From positions 1 through 32,533 of the forward strand of contig JAAZDK010000168.1 in NCBI GenBank assembly GCA_012512855.1: a stretch of 32,533 bases of DNA, read 5' to 3'. Of this stretch, positions 8,591-22,071 are shown one piece after another (position 1 is the stretch's first letter; each line of letters opens with the position of its first letter). Position numbers and translations under genes: made by a program. The notes beneath the pieces are model-generated. The model saw only the letters and a program-made list of their open reading frames with translations, was not told the origin of the DNA and did not search any database. The stretch is from Clostridiales bacterium (GTDB taxonomy: Bacteria > Bacillota > Clostridia > Lachnospirales > Lachnospiraceae).

Positions 8591-8626
8591 AAAAAAAGCT
8601 TTTATCCCGTAAAGGGACAAAAGCTT
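8591..8626 (-). terminator. T-box attenuator terminator before trpE
   Basis: Minus-strand hairpin AAGCTTTTGTCCC / GGGATAAAAGCTT (one mismatch) with a short loop, followed by a run of seven Ts. It lies immediately after the T-box sequence, and the antiterminator would use part of the upstream arm. Premature termination here would set trp operon expression. Confidence 0.9.
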
Positions 8627-8903
8627 AAAACTTCTGCGGTGCCACCCAATTTGATGTATAAAACATCCACTCATTTTGCATACCATCATATGCACCCTAC
8701 TGATAACGGACAGGGTTCCCGTAAGCGACTACTCTCATATTACTTACCTGTAATATGATTTCGGGCTTCCCTCACAAGGCCATTCAGTATTACCTCTGCA
8801 ACCGCATTCCCACCAGCAGCGGCTCTCTGTATACATCCGGTAAAACCTACTATTCTTGCTCAACGGTTTAATTCTTATTTCATTGGCTTGGTTTTTTATA
8901 TTT
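8591..8903 (-). ncRNA. Tryptophan T-box leader RNA
   Basis: The conserved T-box GGGTGGCACCGCAG is present on the minus strand (plus 8635-8648), followed by the terminator. Upstream are the stem I elements: AGAGAGCC with the distal GGTGGGAA loop, then TGAATGGCC, where the specifier codon reads UGG (8780-8782). A stem II hairpin (CATATTAC/GTAATATG), a CGGGAACCCTGTCCG hairpin and a stem III hairpin (GGATGT/ACATC) follow. UGG names tryptophan, matching the genes downstream: uncharged tRNA-Trp should stabilise the antiterminator. About 110 nt separate the terminator from trpE. The transcription start is estimated from the promoter. Confidence 0.93.
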
Positions 8904-8909
8904 AAGCGC

Positions 8910-8939
8910 ATTATAACAACAGACAAAATTAGTTGTCAA
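8910..8939 (-). promoter_or_regulatory. Sigma-A promoter of the trp operon
   Basis: TTGACA (8934-8939) and TATAAT (8910-8915) with an 18-bp spacer, both perfect consensus, just upstream of the T-box leader. Confidence 0.85.
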
Positions 8940-9116
8940 GAAGAATTTTTAAAATTTTTTAAGGATTTGATCTTTTATATTTTACCATATGTATAAAATA
9001 AGCTCACTTTCAAATGTGGAGTTCGCTTATAAATGGGAAAAATGGTTTTGTAATTTGCCAAAATAAATCACGACTGATAATAATTAAATTTTTCGTTTAC
9101 TTTAATATATAAATTA

Positions 9117-9145
9117 TTGACAGTCAGATATAAATAAGTTATATT
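9117..9145 (+). promoter_or_regulatory. Sigma-A promoter of purE
   Basis: TTGACA (9117-9122), 17-bp spacer, TATATT (9140-9145). The roughly 75-nt leader holds a small hairpin CTCCAT-TGT-ATGGAG at about 9168-9182. I recognise no purine riboswitch and no clear PurBox. Confidence 0.65.
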
Positions 9146-9228
9146 GCATTTACAACACGAAATCATGCTCCATTGTATGGAGTTACGATTATCTAATGCC
9201 CATATCTTACATAAAGGAGGAGATAAAA

Positions 9229-9726
9229 ATGACCAAAAAAGTAGCTATATTAATGGGCAGCGACAGTGACATACCTGTAGTCAACGGAGCGATTAATGCC
9301 TTAAAGGGCTTCGGCATTCCGGTTGAAGTACATATTATGAGTGCCCACAGAACTCCAACTCAGGCGGCTGAATTTGCATCCAAAGCAAAAGAAAACGGCT
9401 TTGGCGTTATAATATGTGCAGCAGGAAAGGCCGCCAATCTGGCAGGTGTTATTGCCGCCCATACTACTCTTCCGGTGATAGGTATACCGATAAAATCCTC
9501 CACACTGGACGGACTGGACGCTTTACTGTCAACGGTACAAATGCCAAAGGGTGTTCCTGTAGCTTGTGTAGCAATTGATGGAGCTGACAATGCAGCTATT
9601 CTGGCAGCCCAGATATTAGCCGTAAATGACGAAGAACTCAGCAGTAAACTGGAGAAAATGAAACAGGATATGACTGATGATGTTATCCGCAAAGACCAAA
9701 AGCTCCAGGCTGAAATGAACAGTTAA
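9229..9726 (+). CDS. purE: N5-carboxyaminoimidazole ribonucleotide mutase (PurE)
   Basis: 165 residues, normal PurE length, with the substrate-binding GSDSD, the SAHRTP segment carrying the catalytic His, and IVQMP-like TVQMPKGVPV. It works in de novo purine synthesis, converting N5-CAIR to CAIR. The ATG at 9229 follows AAAGGAGG by about 7 nt; an open frame back to 9196 has no site of its own. The usual class I GGAAHLPG segment reads GKAANLAG here, so the His of that loop is Asn. The gene stands alone, with no purK, purC or other pur gene in the window. The family is secure; class I versus class II is less certain because of the changed loop. Confidence 0.92.
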   Translation: MTKKVAILMGSDSDIPVVNGAINALKGFGIPVEVHIMSAHRTPTQAAEFASKAKENGFGVIICAAGKAANLAGVIAAHTTLPVIGIPIKSSTLDGLDALLSTVQMPKGVPVACVAIDGADNAAILAAQILAVNDEELSSKLEKMKQDMTDDVIRKDQKLQAEMNS

Positions 9727-9981: not shown

Positions 9982-11838
9982 TTACTCGTATATTCTAGCT
10001 GTGTAGAAAATATAATCAATATCTCCTCCGTTATATTCATCATCCTTATGTAATATAGCTATATAATAGGTACCGGGAATCAGGAAGACATCATATAGCT
10101 TGGCAGTATAATCATCTCCCTTTTCCGCAAACAGATAGCTGTCTTCACTATCCATCAGTACAAAATAGCTATCATCAATGCCGATACCGTCCTTGTAATT
10201 TATAAATGCATAGAAATAGCCATAATAATCCATCTCAAACCTGTATATATCCCATAATTCACCCGGTTTCAGTCTTCCTATTACCGCAGTATCGGACGGT
10301 ATCTCCTGACAGGTTGCAAACTTCTTGCTGTTTTGCTCATCTTCAATTATGGCATTGGCAAGCATCTCATCCAAAAGCATTTTGTCATATAATTCAATAT
10401 ATTCCTCGATACTTATGGGCCTGTTGGTATTAATTTTTTGCAGCTCCCTGATATTTATTGCAAAATTGAGATTTTGCCCATCAACAAAATACATGTTAAT
10501 TATGCCAATGACCTCTCCGTATTTATTTATCAGGGGACCACCGCTGTTACCCTTCGATACCGGTGCATCTATCTGAATATAATCCACATTATTATCGGAT
10601 ATTTTTCTGGAGGCTGAGGTTACCATACCCTTGGTCATCGTTGCAGTCAGTCCAAAGGGGCTACCAATTGCATATACATCCTGGCCTACTGCAACCTTAT
10701 CCTGACTTATGATTAAGGGAGCATTTTCCTTATCTGTGGCAAGTATGGCCAGATCCAGCTTCTTATCAAAGCCAAGTATGGTTTTTATTTCAACAGTCTC
10801 TTCGTCGTAACCCTTGACAGTAATCTTTTTTGCACCCTCTATTACATGATAATTTGTTACTATTATGCCTTTATCAACATAAAAGCCGGAGCCAATAGAC
10901 TGCATATCGTCAGAAACAGCATTTATCTCGACAGTAGATTTTCCACATAACTCATAAATTTCTTCCGCAGTCAGAGCTTTCTTCTGCTTGGGCTTTTCTG
11001 TTACGATAACATTTATAAAAAGCTTGTCGTTTGTCTTATTACTGCTTATTGTTATTGTATCTGTCCCGATCTTAAGGGGCTTAATGGTCAGGGCAATCCT
11101 GTCCCCATCAAAAGTCTCCGCCCATTCACAGCTCACTATATCACTGCTGCCTGTTTGAAATTGGAGGCTTTCTCCCTCCATTATATCTGTTACCCTAATC
11201 CATACGGTAAAGTCATTATATAAGCTAATTTCGGTAGAAAAGCTTCCTAAACGGTTTGTACCAATTTCTAGCTTGCACTTGGCAGTCAAATCACCCAGCC
11301 TTGCATAGATCGTAGCCTGACCTCCATTTTTGGCGGTAACCTTACCCTTGGAGGAAACCTCTGCTACATCAGGATTTGACGAGCTCCAGCTGATTTCGCC
11401 ATCTATACCATATGCCTTAGCTTTAAATTGAGCTGTCTCTCCTGCATTAAGATAGCTTGTCGATTGGGTAATGGATATATATGGCTTTTTAACAGTAACC
11501 TTCAGCTTAAGGCTGAATGTTTTTTTATTCTGCTTAACTGTTGCAGTAATCGTAGCGCTGCCTGCTGATATTGCCTTTACTACACCCTTTGCCGATACCT
11601 TTGCAACCTTTTCATTGCTGGATTTATATGAAAGCTTCGCTCCCTTGGCAAGATTATTTATCTTGATTGTATAATCCTTATATCCAAGATAAAGTGTTAT
11701 CTTTTGCTCCTTCAGTGCAGGGGCTTTCTCGGCAGCATAGGCCGTCATGACCACATTCATATCAAACATGGCCGGTATGCCATATGAGATTATTAACACC
11801 ATAATCAGACTTACTATAATTTTTTTAAATTTATACAT
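9982..11838 (-). CDS. Secreted BIG2-domain / HtrA-like trypsin serine protease
   Basis: 618 residues. The start at 11838 (MYKFKKIIVS) is chosen because it gives a signal peptide (basic start, hydrophobic core to about 22, further hydrophobic stretch ending in AYAAEK) and follows GGGAGG; the longer frame from 11967 begins upstream of the promoter. Two Ig-like BIG2 domains (about 42-117 and 118-193) show the S-x-N-x-x-V-A-x-V-S-x-x-G-x-V pattern, followed by a third beta-rich, less clear segment. A trypsin-like domain (about 300-490) has the triad His331 (NYHVIEG), Asp362 (KKLDLAIL) and Ser432 (KGNSGGPL), close to HtrA/DegP but with no PDZ domain seen. The C-terminal ~80 residues resemble a pre-peptidase C-terminal beta domain. 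Probably cell-wall associated or secreted; substrates are unknown. Confidence 0.85.
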   Translation of the reverse strand: MYKFKKIIVSLIMVLIISYGIPAMFDMNVVMTAYAAEKAPALKEQKITLYLGYKDYTIKINNLAKGAKLSYKSSNEKVAKVSAKGVVKAISAGSATITATVKQNKKTFSLKLKVTVKKPYISITQSTSYLNAGETAQFKAKAYGIDGEISWSSSNPDVAEVSSKGKVTAKNGGQATIYARLGDLTAKCKLEIGTNRLGSFSTEISLYNDFTVWIRVTDIMEGESLQFQTGSSDIVSCEWAETFDGDRIALTIKPLKIGTDTITISSNKTNDKLFINVIVTEKPKQKKALTAEEIYELCGKSTVEINAVSDDMQSIGSGFYVDKGIIVTNYHVIEGAKKITVKGYDEETVEIKTILGFDKKLDLAILATDKENAPLIISQDKVAVGQDVYAIGSPFGLTATMTKGMVTSASRKISDNNVDYIQIDAPVSKGNSGGPLINKYGEVIGIINMYFVDGQNLNFAINIRELQKINTNRPISIEEYIELYDKMLLDEMLANAIIEDEQNSKKFATCQEIPSDTAVIGRLKPGELWDIYRFEMDYYGYFYAFINYKDGIGIDDSYFVLMDSEDSYLFAEKGDDYTAKLYDVFLIPGTYYIAILHKDDEYNGGDIDYIFYTARIYE

Positions 11839-11874
11839 TTCAGCTGAAAGCCTCCCGATTATCCAGATACTTTT

Positions 11875-11902
11875 ATTATAGCGGTATATTTTGCATATGC
11901 AA
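11875..11902 (-). promoter_or_regulatory. Promoter of the BIG2-trypsin protease gene with a palindromic -35
   Basis: TTGCAT (11897-11902), 16-bp spacer, TATAAT (11875-11880) on the minus strand. The -35 lies inside a perfect 12-bp palindrome, TTGCATATGCAA (11891-11902), which could be an operator. Confidence 0.6.
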
Positions 11903-12131
11903 GCTTGTAATTTCACAATGTTTAATTTTATCTTTATTTTTCTAGATATTAAGCTGTAAAATATCATAATAAATGCACATATCTTAGATGATTATGATTA
12001 TTTCTTGATATTATATAGCTAAATGCCTTGGTTCAAATTGCTAAAGCCTTAATGAAGAAATATATGAAGCTTACTGTTCATGTTGAAAAAGCGAAAATGA
12101 TGAAAGATGGCAATAATAATATACTCTTAAT
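11903..12131. other. Gene-free stretch upstream of the araM leader
   Basis: AT-rich. The only frame of note is a 39-codon plus-strand ORF (12052-12171) with no ribosome site that runs through the terminator at 12132-12165, so I do not call it. A promoter for the RNA that ends at that terminator should lie here, but I cannot place one with confidence. Confidence 0.5.
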
Positions 12132-12165
12132 CCATGATATGATAAAATTATATCATGGTTTTTTT
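12132..12165 (+). terminator. Intrinsic terminator in the araM leader
   Basis: Perfect 9-bp stem CCATGATAT / ATATCATGG (12132-12140, 12150-12158), 9-nt loop, then seven Ts. It lies only about 70 bp before the dehydrogenase start and no plus-strand gene ends upstream, so it may act as an attenuator or end a short leader RNA. Confidence 0.75.
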
Positions 12166-12235
12166 ATATAGCTGGTTTGATTCTTTATTCTTGATAAGGA
12201 CTATCAAATCAAATACGGATAAAGGCGGTAGAATT

Positions 12236-13615
12236 ATGAATTTAGATAAGCAAGCTATTCTTTTGGATGGAAACAGCGACATTAACGAATATCTCAAAGG
12301 CAGCCTTGGCTGTGATTGCGGCAGAGAGCATTCGGCAGCAATAAAGCAAATTGAAATTAAGGAAAATGCCATATATTCACTTATACCCTATCTTAAGGCC
12401 AATAGCTACAGAAGGCCATTCCTTATTTTTGACAAAACCACATACAAGCTGGCCGGTGATTTGCTAATCAATTTATTCAATGAAGCAAATCAGGCCTTCT
12501 CCTGTCACGTTATAGAAAGCCCTGAGCCTGTTCCGGACGAATGGGCGGTCGGTGATATTCTTATCCATTATGATAACTCCTCTGATTGCATTATAGGAGT
12601 CGGAAGTGGAACTATCAATGACCTAAGCCGCTTTGTCAGCTTCAGACTCGGTATTCCATATATTATTGTGGCTACCGCTCCAAGTATGGACGGCTATGCC
12701 TCAAATGTTGCTCCCCTGATTGTCAATCATCTTAAAACTACATACGAAGCCCAAACTGCTCATGCCATTTTTGCCGACAGCAGCCTGCTAAAGAGTGCGC
12801 CCATGAATATGCTTGCTGCAGGTATAGGCGATATTCTGGGCAAATACAGCTGCCTGTGTGACTGGGAAATAGCTCATATAGTCACAGACGAATACTACTG
12901 TCCCACGGTAGCGGCTATTGTAAAAAGGTCGCTGGAGGCTGTTTCATCCGGCATACATGCTGCCGCAGCCAAAAGTAATGATGCTATAAGGGATGTTATG
13001 AATGCCCTTGTTCTGTCCGGTATTGCCATGAGCTATGCGGGCAACTCCAGGCCTGCCTCCGGCAGCGAACATCATCTGTCCCATTACTGGGAAATGACTT
13101 ATCTCTTTGAGGGGAGAAAGCCGGTTTTACACGGCACCAAGGTCGGTATCGGAACCATAGCCGTCATCAGGGCCTTTGAGCTTCTTTTGTCAAGGAAAAT
13201 AGATTTTGATAAGGCCAGGGCTGCCGCTTCAAGCTTTGACATGCATGAATGGGAGGCGGATATGACGGAATCCTTTCGGCAGGCTGCACCCACTGTTATA
13301 GTTCTTGAACGGCAGGTGGGAAAGAACAATCCTGAAAATGTAATTAGGCGCATTAATAAGCTTGAGGCAAACTGGAATGAAATAGCGAAAATTATCGCAG
13401 GCCTGCCTGCTGCAGATAAAATCAGGTCATGGCTCAGGGCTTTGGGAGCAGCCGACAGTCCCATGGCAATAGGTATAGACAGGAAGCTTTTCATAAAAAG
13501 CTTTGCTGTCGCCAAGGAACTGAGAAACCGCTATGGTCTGCTCCAAATCCTCTTTGATCTGAGCTTAACGGAAGAAATTGCTGAAGAAGTATGGGAATAT
13601 TTTCAGCAAAATTAA
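12236..13615 (+). CDS. araM: sn-Glycerol-1-phosphate dehydrogenase, AraM/EgsA family
   Basis: 459 residues, in the iron/nickel alcohol-dehydrogenase-like superfamily. It has GVGSGTIND (121-129) for NAD(P), TAPSMDGYAS (147-156), and likely metal ligands Asp199 (AGIGDILGK), a His of SGSEHHLSH (279-283) and His299 (LHGTKVGIGT). It would reduce dihydroxyacetone phosphate to sn-glycerol 1-phosphate, as the Bacillus AraM enzyme does. The ATG at 12236 follows AAAGGCGG by about 7 nt; the frame is open to 12155 but that part runs into the leader terminator. It precedes sugar-metabolism genes, recalling the arabinose operon setting of B. subtilis araM, though no arabinose gene is in view. The family is secure; the exact substrate is inferred. 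Confidence 0.9.
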   Translation: MNLDKQAILLDGNSDINEYLKGSLGCDCGREHSAAIKQIEIKENAIYSLIPYLKANSYRRPFLIFDKTTYKLAGDLLINLFNEANQAFSCHVIESPEPVPDEWAVGDILIHYDNSSDCIIGVGSGTINDLSRFVSFRLGIPYIIVATAPSMDGYASNVAPLIVNHLKTTYEAQTAHAIFADSSLLKSAPMNMLAAGIGDILGKYSCLCDWEIAHIVTDEYYCPTVAAIVKRSLEAVSSGIHAAAAKSNDAIRDVMNALVLSGIAMSYAGNSRPASGSEHHLSHYWEMTYLFEGRKPVLHGTKVGIGTIAVIRAFELLLSRKIDFDKARAAASSFDMHEWEADMTESFRQAAPTVIVLERQVGKNNPENVIRRINKLEANWNEIAKIIAGLPAADKIRSWLRALGAADSPMAIGIDRKLFIKSFAVAKELRNRYGLLQILFDLSLTEEIAEEVWEYFQQN

Positions 13616-20027: not shown

Positions 20028-20056
20028 TTGCAAATTCTACATATATATACTATAAT
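20028..20056 (+). promoter_or_regulatory. Sigma-A type promoter of the chemoreceptor/sugar-binding fusion gene
   Basis: TTGCAA (20028-20033), 17-bp spacer, TATAAT (20051-20056). It does not look like a sigma-D motility promoter, so the gene may be expressed with metabolism rather than with flagellar genes. Confidence 0.65.
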
Positions 20057-20118: not shown

Positions 20119-22071
20119 ATGAACTGGCCAAAATGGTTCAAAAAAACAGATGAACATCAAAATGAAAATGAAATATTGGAAAAACTACTTCAATGGGATT
20201 TTACTGAAGAATTGACATCAGCGGCTGACGGAGTAAATGAGACCTTTATCACCTTGCATGATAATTACAGAAAATATTTTGAAGAATTTAATCAGGATTT
20301 CGATGAAATCAAGCTTGTTGCAGATCAGCTAGAAGGTGTCATTGACGGCCTGGTGGATTCCTCCAACAATGTTCGAATGGCTGCAGAATTCATCGCAGAG
20401 GGAGCTCAAAGCCAGACCGAGGAGATTAATACTTGTCAATCTGTTGCTGATATTATAGCAGATAAAATTAACAGGATGAGCCAGCGCTCTAAAGAATTAA
20501 TAGATTCAGCACAAGAAATGGGCAAGGTAAGCAATGATGGCAAGATAGCCATTGAAAATCTGTCTGAGAACCAGCATAAGAACATTGAAGCTAACAATGC
20601 CATTACCAGAGAGATATATAATCTACTGGACAAAACAAAAACCATTAATGAAATTACAAATGTCTTGTACGATATAGCAAGCCAGACTAATCTTTTATCA
20701 CTTAATGCTTCTATAGAAGCAGCCAGAGCAGGCGATGCCGGCAAAGGCTTTGCAGTTGTTGCTGAAGAAGTAAGAAAGCTTGCTGAACGCAGCCGAGCCG
20801 CCAGTGCAACAATCAATGAGAACATCTCTGAAATTAATAAGCAGCTCAGCAATCTTAAAAATGTTACCGATGATTCAAAGGAAACCTTCTACAACCAGTC
20901 ACTTGCAGTTAATAAGGTAATTGAAGCCTTTGAAATAATCAATAACTATGTTGACAATTTCATTAGCAGTCAACAGGATTTCTATGAAGAGGTTCAAAGT
21001 CTTACAAACGAAAAGGAGCGTCTTATAGATTCCTTCTGCAGTATTGCTTCCGTTATTCAGGAGTCCTCTGCCACTACCGAAGAGGTGGCTTCACTTACCA
21101 TAAGCCAGAACAGTACTGCCAATATAATCTTTAAGATGGCCCAGGATTTAAGCGAAAAGGTTGGCAAGATAGCGAAAAACTCGGAGAAAATCAAGACTAA
21201 GCACCTTACCAGAAGCCAAAGGAAGGTTGGTGTCATCTTTGATATTGAAGATCCCTTCTGGGATCCTACCATAAGGGAAGGTAAAAAGACTGCCAAAGCG
21301 TTAAACTTCTATCTGGAATTTTATGCTCCCAAGACAAGACAAAATGCAGCTGCCGATATTCTTGCCGCAATAAAGGATTTTCTGTCCAGAGGCTTTGATG
21401 CACTGATTATCAGCCCTGTTGAGAGTCCTGAAATTTCCCGGATTCTCAAGGAAGCCGCAAGCAACGGAGTCAAGATAGTATTCATCAACTCCGCACTTGA
21501 TGATGTTCCTTATGTATCACTGATAGAAACCAATGGCTATGAGCTGGGAAAGAACGCTGCCAGGACAGCAAAGCAGCTGCTTAATAACCAGGGTGAAGCG
21601 GCTGTCGTTCTATGGTCGGATGTAAAAATCCGTTCCATCGAAAAGCGTGCTGAGGGCTTTATTGAGGAACTGCAGAATAATTCCAATATTAAGGTTTATC
21701 CCAAGAGCGCTCCCAGTACTCCGACGGAAGAGATTCTTGACAAACTTTTTGCCGAGCTTAAGCGTGACCATCCCAATCTTAAGCTTCTATATGCCACCAA
21801 TGTTAACTGGGGTGTGGCATACGGAAATTATATTCACAAGCATAATCTGAACTACGATGTATTAACGGTTGATTTAACCAAGGCTGTCGCTGATCTTATT
21901 AAGGAAGGCAAAATCAGGGCTGCTATCGCCCAGCGTGCCTTCACCTGGGTTACCCAGGGGCTTGAATTATTGGTGGACGCCTTCCAGAGCAAGCCAGTTG
22001 TAACATACACCGATACAGGTACATATGAGGTTAACAAATCCAACATATCTATTTATGAACATAGAGTATGA
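20119..22071 (+). CDS. Soluble chemoreceptor (MCP) signalling domain fused to a C-terminal periplasmic-type sugar-binding domain
   Basis: 650 residues. Residues ~40-360 are a long heptad-rich helical region with the MCP hairpin tip at about 186-225 ([20 protein letters not shown], then [18 protein letters not shown]), the site that contacts CheA/CheW in known receptors. Candidate methylation pairs lie in both helices (QSQTEEIN and SATTEEVAS). From about 367 to 640 a type I periplasmic-binding-protein fold, ribose/galactose-binding type, begins with [16 protein letters not shown] and includes [12 protein letters not shown]. There is no signal peptide and no hydrophobic membrane segment anywhere, so both halves should be cytoplasmic. 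The domain order is the reverse of ordinary receptors. It starts after AGAGGGGTG and is divergent from the alpha-xylosidase, suggesting it senses an intracellular sugar. A non-chemotactic regulator is the alternative. Confidence 0.9.

Follow-up and report, generated by a model that had tools for sequence, protein, structure and literature searches.

A membrane-free chemoreceptor with a C-terminal sugar-binding-protein fold and its fused relatives in the Bacillota

A single open reading frame (ORF) in a 32,533-nucleotide stretch of a Clostridiales genome (contig JAAZDK010000168.1 of assembly GCA_012512855.1; hereafter the window) encodes a chemoreceptor that has no detectable membrane segment and that ends in a domain with the fold of type I sugar-binding proteins. 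The initial annotation had described such a receptor from the DNA letters alone, and the analyses presented here confirmed that it is real and intact. We consider it probable that the protein acts as a cytoplasmic chemoreceptor in which the sugar-binding-protein fold, attached to the C-terminus of the signalling hairpin in a fixed register, allows a cytosolic sugar or sugar-like metabolite to steer the cell via CheA. As judged from sequence comparisons, the receptor is a member of a large and widespread family of such fused receptors in the Bacillota, and receptors of this family probably let cells steer by sugar that is already inside. Sugar chemotaxis has been described mainly as sensing on the outside of the cell, either directly or through docking binding proteins, or as sensing of phosphotransferase flux. 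If our view is correct, the direct reading of cytosolic sugar by receptors would represent a further route of sugar chemotaxis, which could explain metabolism-dependent taxis in fibre-degrading Clostridia.

Architecture, topology and genomic setting

The receptor gene occupies positions 20119-22071 of the forward strand, exactly as initially annotated, and encodes 650 amino acids. A Pfam search identified MCPsignal at residues 162-304 (E-value of 1.5e-30; 106.7 bits versus a curated cut-off of 34.6) and Peripla_BP_4 at residues 375-625 (E-value of 2.9e-32; 112.7 bits versus a cut-off of 35.1), so that the proposed order of these two domains within a single ORF was borne out. No other Pfam family matched, including CZB and helix-turn-helix (HTH) domains, and none of the NCBIfam models reached its cut-off, the best partial scores being those of MCP models and of the D-allose and YtfQ binding-protein models. 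The following features were assigned:

20028..20056, forward strand: sigma-A-like promoter match upstream of the receptor gene (TTGCAA-17-TATAAT, 10/12; motif scan)
20119..22071, forward strand: gene of the membrane-free chemoreceptor (650 amino acids; MCP signalling hairpin, then C-terminal Peripla_BP_4 domain)
20239..20724, forward strand: N-terminal arm of the MCP hairpin, helix, residues 41-202 (predicted structure)
20401..20424, forward strand: candidate methylation region of the N-terminal arm, residues 95-102, rich in Q and E, partly conserved
20674..20733, forward strand: hairpin tip, residues 186-205, strongly conserved among relatives
20737..21180, forward strand: C-terminal arm of the hairpin, helix, residues 207-354 (predicted structure)
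21061..21096, forward strand: candidate methylation region of the C-terminal arm, residues 315-326, with adjacent E-E, mostly conserved
21181..21216, forward strand: short linker between hairpin and sensor, residues 355-366 (model; tip-to-sensor spacing constant in relatives)
21217..22068, forward strand: C-terminal type I sugar-binding domain, residues 367-650 (Pfam, model and Foldseek; pocket F/W/R/N-or-D/D/Q kept)

The frequency of such promoter matches is at chance level, with 12 sigma-A-like matches found in the region versus 9.9 expected by chance (standard deviation of 3.7).

An AlphaFold2 model of the monomer, computed with 18 sequences (mean pLDDT of 76.7, pTM of 0.58), showed helices at residues 41-202 and 207-354, a turn at residues 203-206, the linker at residues 355-366 and then an alpha/beta domain. 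The pLDDT was 84-94 over residues 371-640 of the sensor domain, and blocks of the hairpin had values of 50-78, which represents modest confidence. The two helices, together with the conservation of the tip among relatives, support the view that the MCP hairpin is complete, as had been read from the tip and the methylation-like pairs visible in the sequence. Residues 186-205 of the tip are presumably the region that, as in MCPs generally, contacts CheA and CheW. Both candidate methylation regions were named by their resemblance to the methylation motif, and within the N-terminal one G95 and Q99 are invariant in the alignment of relatives. With respect to the C-terminal domain, Pfam, the AlphaFold2 model and Foldseek agreed on the type I sugar-binding fold that had been proposed. 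The best solved structure found by Foldseek was the Thermotoga maritima glucose-binding protein (2h3h; E-value of 8.3e-18), further matches included 3g1w and AraP (6sw4), with RbsB (2dri) lower in the list, and the best match in a sequence profile search was AraP (6sw4; E-value of 2.7e-28).

The absence of a signal peptide and of membrane helices, which had also been postulated, was upheld by a Kyte-Doolittle scan (19-residue window, threshold of 1.6): by this simple hydrophobicity measure no membrane segment was found in the receptor, the maximum being 1.24. Moreover, the stop-to-stop frame comprises 655 codons, leaving at most 5 codons before the start, and a wrongly assigned start therefore cannot hide an N-terminal signal or anchor. 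A frameshift joining two separate genes, or a misassembly, is excluded by the presence of both domains in all 18 window-type proteins scanned, including that of the window, and in all 25 more diverse fused proteins (43/43 altogether).

The genome that harbours the receptor (3.05 Mb in 301 contigs, 87% complete, 4% contaminated) also contains the genes with which a chemoreceptor would be expected to work, CheA and CheW among them. It encodes 13 MCPsignal matches, four CheW-domain matches, one of which is CheA, and three CheR proteins, and its contig C149 carries the genes for CheB, CheC, CheD, FliP, FlhB and FlhA. Three of the 13 receptors have a C-terminal sensor, namely that of the window and two anchored ones on contigs C293 (705 amino acids, locus L033) and C25 (736 amino acids, locus L137). 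The sensor profile did not match the stretches of the other ten at an E-value of 1e-3. One further receptor of this genome, on contig C66 (L167:27-1538 of G000; 503 amino acids), has no membrane segment and extends 274 residues past its tip motif, and its only Pfam match is MCPsignal. By the scan, two further loci, L164 and L168, have no membrane segment either; these proteins may be soluble or cut.

Relatives, fixed spacing and origin of the fusions

The window receptor has 17 relatives of the same type with identities of 39-68% and the same domain order. Among 34 genomes of the genus, five have the window type, which is intact in G000, G012, G014 and G024 and spread over two frames in G017. 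This split receptor (L038:7783-8505 and 8598-9719) may be a decaying copy or the result of a sequencing error. A scan of sequenced contigs with the sensor domain gave 20 loci (L046-L065) from Clostridiales metagenome-assembled genomes (MAGs), Herbinix, Kineothrix, Mobilisporobacter, Anaerocolumna, Clostridium guangxiense, another Clostridium, Evansella, rumen Lachnospiraceae and a MAG labelled Anaerolineaceae. The public name of the latter (L055; SHOH01000080.1, ‘Anaerolineaceae bacterium MAG4’) looks wrong, the start of its receptor being the same as that in G014. At 18 of these 20 loci the proteins have 613-667 amino acids and no membrane segments; of the other two, L048 is split and L051 is truncated at the end of its contig.

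Scans at higher taxonomic levels gave a similar picture. In the class scan (391 genomes), the top 11 matches of the sensor profile were all located in fused frames of 648-764 amino acids, and the twelfth was a 357-residue frame with a lipoprotein-like signal. Altogether, 14 matches in 13 of the 391 genomes had frames of more than 640 amino acids, all of which were checked for both domains (those of G129 and G228 as L050 and L052, which were judged to be the same). The order scan (392 genomes), in which up to six candidates per genome were scored, gave at least 15 frames of more than 640 amino acids in 13 genomes among the matches listed; 14 of the 15 listed were checked against Pfam directly or via an identical-looking relative, the exception being L144, the tip of which is a variant missed by the search pattern. 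The phylum scan (398 genomes) added two long frames in G970, and locus L171 from this genome encodes a membrane-free fused protein. The split receptor of G017 (L048, L013 and L038) and the truncated L051 are outside all counts of fused proteins, and L049, the N-terminus of which is cut by a contig end, was kept in the pocket, spacing and tree sets.

Of the 45 different fused proteins examined, 22 lack any membrane segment and 23 are anchored by one or two N-terminal helices. The anchored ones comprise L144-L148 with a single N-terminal segment, L074, the N-terminus of which is cut by a contig end, and 17 proteins with two helices, a number that was read by eye, since the script merges several of these pairs into one long segment. 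No sizeable domain or loop between the N-terminal helices of the anchored relatives was seen upon inspection by eye, and an extra weak hydrophobic segment in L137 (residues 641-660) lies within the sensor fold. The MCP hairpin can meet CheA only in the cytoplasm, and the sensor, which comes after it in the chain, should therefore be located there as well in all 45 fused proteins. The earlier suggestion of a cytosolic sensor thus gains support from the anchored relatives, which leave the sensor inside, and from operons with intracellular sugar enzymes. The 37 single-domain loci comprised 33 of the exported type, two LacI-type regulators and two wrong ORF picks. An N-terminal hydrophobic segment was detected in all 33 exported-type loci, in 31 by script and in two by eye; this group includes near-copies and one gene that was fetched twice.

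The distance between the tip and the sensor is strikingly constant. Measured from where the tip motif begins to the sensor's first strand, it is exactly 179 residues in each of the 37 proteins of the window's group, and this spacing holds down to 23% identity to the window protein among those for which identity was computed. In the second fusion group described below, the same distance is exactly 184 residues in 8 of 8 proteins (seven by script and L144 by hand). The near-copies L060 and L062 were retained in the spacing and pocket counts. On the N-terminal side, the distance from the WDF motif to the tip took eight values (163-171) among the 19 proteins bearing this motif. The tip motif, which is 13 residues long, was found by pattern in eight of the ten other MCPs of the genome, five of which end 155-157 residues past it (the remaining three at 83, 184 and 274). 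The first strand of the sensor therefore starts about 10 residues beyond the end of a typical receptor of this genome. It should be noted that the fixed length class of the coil explains most of the constancy of the spacing, and that only the linker part is extra evidence. The exact spacing makes the coupling mechanism directly testable, and the family would, if it reads cytosolic sugar, offer modular sensors that consist of a sugar pocket, a fixed linker and an MCP hairpin.

To trace the origin of the fusions we used an unrooted tree of the sensor domain with 73 rows, including RbsB. It was drawn from 45 fused and 37 single-domain loci, from which two wrong ORF picks (L124 and L130), the near-copies L060, L062, L088, L121-L123 and L127, and the odd sequence L093 were removed. 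The fused proteins appeared in two places of this tree. The first place (support of 100/98) contains 35 fused rows, including that of the window receptor, together with three exported proteins (L077, L080 and L090). The fork between these three rows, 15 fused rows and the 20 fused rows with the window receptor is not resolved, so that one or two fusions are possible there. The second place groups eight fused rows with two LacI regulators (97/81), both of which have long branches. This second fusion group (L144-L148, L037, L137 and L142) is anchored by one or two N-terminal helices. The labels fused, exported and LacI require four changes on the tree, the rootless form of which does not separate gain from loss. 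The tree suggests, as far as these sequences can tell, that fusion happened at least twice, once near exported sugar-binding proteins and once near LacI-type regulators; alternatively, the sensor may have been swapped beneath an existing fusion. The initial annotation had called the sensor LacI-like, but that of the window groups with exported sugar-binding proteins, and it is the other fusion group that adjoins the two LacI rows. The label membrane-free requires at least three changes on the tree; the anchor has thus come or gone more than once, and throughout these changes the sensor kept its place at the C-terminus.

Binding pocket, gene neighbourhoods and the ligand

The equivalents of RbsB residues F15, F16, R141, D215 and Q235 are F, W, R, D and Q in all 19 window-type proteins, and the equivalent of N190 is N in 12 and D in seven of them. 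The position of D89, a sugar-contact residue of RbsB, is occupied by N in 10, Q in six, L in two and S in one of the 19. In view of this altered position, the ligand may be neither ribose nor glucose and could even be something other than a sugar. Judging by these residues, the window-type sensors keep the putative binding frame, and their ligand need not be ribose. The window sensor resembles RbsB, the T. maritima glucose-binding protein and AraP in its fold and pocket frame. However, RbsB-type proteins are exported and work outside the cell for ABC transporters or transmembrane receptors, whereas the window domain has no signal peptide or lipobox and is fused to a receptor.

The window receptor is divergently oriented to a gene for a YicI-type alpha-xylosidase (NF007940, 1262.6 bits), which had been taken to suggest a xyloglucan-derived ligand. 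We do not accept this suggestion. A tblastn search with the alpha-xylosidase found no GH31 relative in the flanks of loci L046-L065 (20 loci, up to 8 kb per side and shorter at contig ends). Five further flanks were also without a GH31 relative, among which only L045 (G049) represents a new place, L038 and L042-L044 being the same places as L048, L046, L047 and L055. The alpha-xylosidase occurs in 23 of the 34 genomes of the genus (E-value ≤1e-100); it is present in 5 of 5 genomes with the receptor (one copy being split) versus 18 of 29 without it, which represents a weak co-occurrence (Fisher p-value of 0.12). The counter-case is G017, where the alpha-xylosidase lies on the contig of the receptor at a distance of about 8 kb, starting just past the searched flank. 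In G012, G014 and G024 the two genes are on different contigs.

The neighbours of the window-type genes differ, and by eye from the protein starts they revealed no common sugar pathway and no conserved operon. Several fused receptors were nevertheless found among sugar genes, at loci that were picked for their context after inspection and that are therefore examples rather than a measure of frequency. The gene for L-rhamnose isomerase (TIGR01748) ends 42 (G024) and 36 (G012) bases before the receptor gene and is preceded by that for rhamnulokinase (TIGR02627); the G024 locus also has an AraC regulator upstream. Downstream of the G049 receptor lie genes for a LacI regulator, glucuronate isomerase, mannonate dehydratase and mannonate oxidoreductase, and the gene of a ROK-family kinase begins 10 bases past the receptor in G021. 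Single cases are located beside or near GH1 (L142), GH3 (L105), GH10 (L148) and GH27 (L037) genes. No link to sugar genes was seen in the neighbourhoods of L097-L102, L143, L145 and L146. The two rhamnose-linked receptors lack the equivalents of D215 and N190, and the sugar of the operon therefore need not be the ligand. A plasmid search with the sensor domain gave no lead: all 121 records were less than 60% identical, and the 20 listed were annotated as ABC or sugar-binding proteins or carried no annotation.

Proposed mechanism, known systems and alternatives

We infer sugar binding, the identity of the ligand, coupling to CheA and the direction of the response as follows. Most likely, a small sugar or sugar-like cytosolic metabolite would close the two lobes of the C-terminal domain, and this closure would shift or twist the base of the dimeric four-helix bundle, which it could reach through the very short and constant linker after the C-terminal helix. 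The change would run along the coiled coil to the tip and alter the activity of CheA through CheW, and CheR and CheB would reset the receptor by methylation. The cell would thereby steer by its intracellular sugar, that is, uptake minus consumption, and not by the sugar outside. More tentatively, we propose that flagellated Bacillota, mostly Lachnospirales and their relatives, may independently and more than once have made this fold a cytoplasmic input of MCPs, joined in strict register to the end of the hairpin's C-terminal arm. A set of such receptors, three of the 13 in this genome, would let them steer by how much of particular sugars or sugar acids the cytosol contains, some of the receptors being tied to the catabolic operon of their sugar.

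Several known systems share parts of this layout. The CZB domain of TlpD-type receptors is C-terminal. TlpD of Helicobacter pylori and the CZB receptors are, like the window protein, fully soluble with a ligand-binding domain, and the available part of the report on intact TlpD describes a structural connection between the ligand site and the distant kinase interface (PMC12871147). These receptors sense with a zinc-binding CZB domain, whereas the window protein carries, after its hairpin, a sugar-binding fold with putative binding activity and has no CZB match. The cytoplasmic receptors of Rhodobacter sphaeroides and Vibrio cholerae, which are membrane-free like that of the window, assemble into arrays of two layers, with the presumed ligand-binding ends as the meeting point, but the available part of the report mentions no sugar-binding domain (PMC3964821). 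LacI/GalR regulators have the same fold and also use it in the cytosol, but their output is DNA binding, whereas the window protein has no HTH and only the second fusion group adjoins LacI rows. According to the accessible sections of PMC9602780, profiles for solute-binding proteins pick up cytosolic sensor proteins as well, and the Peripla_BP_4 members of the strains studied there are predicted to bind xylose, rhamnose and ribose. Excerpts of other papers indicate that a B. subtilis receptor binds ethanol in its cytoplasmic signalling domain (PMC7542364), that Peripla_BP_4 (PF13407) is treated as the LsrB/LuxP domain in work on AI-2 receptors (PMC9540692, PMC12268683), and that clusters of chemoreceptor domains include one Peripla_BP_5 (PMC8547431). 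Our literature search, which covered mostly sources other than subscription journals, found no description of chemoreceptors with a C-terminal Peripla_BP_4 domain and no paper on receptors with rhamnose genes. The order of MCPsignal and Peripla_BP_4 as such is probably already listed in family databases.

The nature of the ligand is the point on which another view has to be weighed first. With an otherwise identical mechanism, the C-terminal domain could sense some cytosolic metabolite other than a free sugar, such as a sugar phosphate, a nucleoside or another polyol, and many LacI/PurR-type domains indeed sense such metabolites. The changed D89 equivalent in all 19 window-type proteins and the lack of a shared sugar pathway among their neighbours by eye are in line with this idea. 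Nonetheless, it appears unlikely, as the nearest solved structures are mostly monosaccharide-binding proteins and several members of the family reside in sugar or uronate operons. It is improbable that the domain no longer binds a ligand and instead docks a partner, such as an enzyme, a regulator or a transporter component, the state of which it would report to the array. Binding proteins that act on a sensor do have a precedent in the XylFII-LytS entries (5xsj) among the structural matches, and some pocket positions vary; on the other hand, the invariance of five core pocket positions in 19 of 19 proteins goes beyond what docking alone would need, and the rigid spacing suits intramolecular coupling. 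That the receptor serves a pathway other than flagellar chemotaxis, for example in gene regulation, seems very improbable: a second pathway could be missing from the incomplete genome, which is nothing direct in its favour, but one of the four CheW-domain matches in this 87% complete genome is CheA, flagellar export genes are present beside it, and the tip has an ordinary conserved sequence. Lastly, although most single-domain relatives of the sensor are exported, the idea that the domain is exported or that the finding is an artefact of a wrong start site or a frameshift is refuted by the hydrophobicity scan, which revealed no signal, by the 655-codon frame without upstream room, by the 43/43 domain scans and by the anchored forms that leave the sensor inside.

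A few observations were made in passing. Locus L106:5183-6922 (G394) encodes a protein of 579 amino acids with an N-terminal hydrophobic segment and two tandem RbsB-like domains, beside transporter-like genes, and frames of 584 amino acids with two sensor matches recur in G610, G535, G521 and G457. Elsewhere in the window, positions 12155-13615 encode a glycerol-1-phosphate dehydrogenase-like protein, the best NCBIfam score of which (198 bits) is below the cut-off of 413, and positions 9982-11967 encode an HtrA-type trypsin-like protease that follows Big_2 domains.
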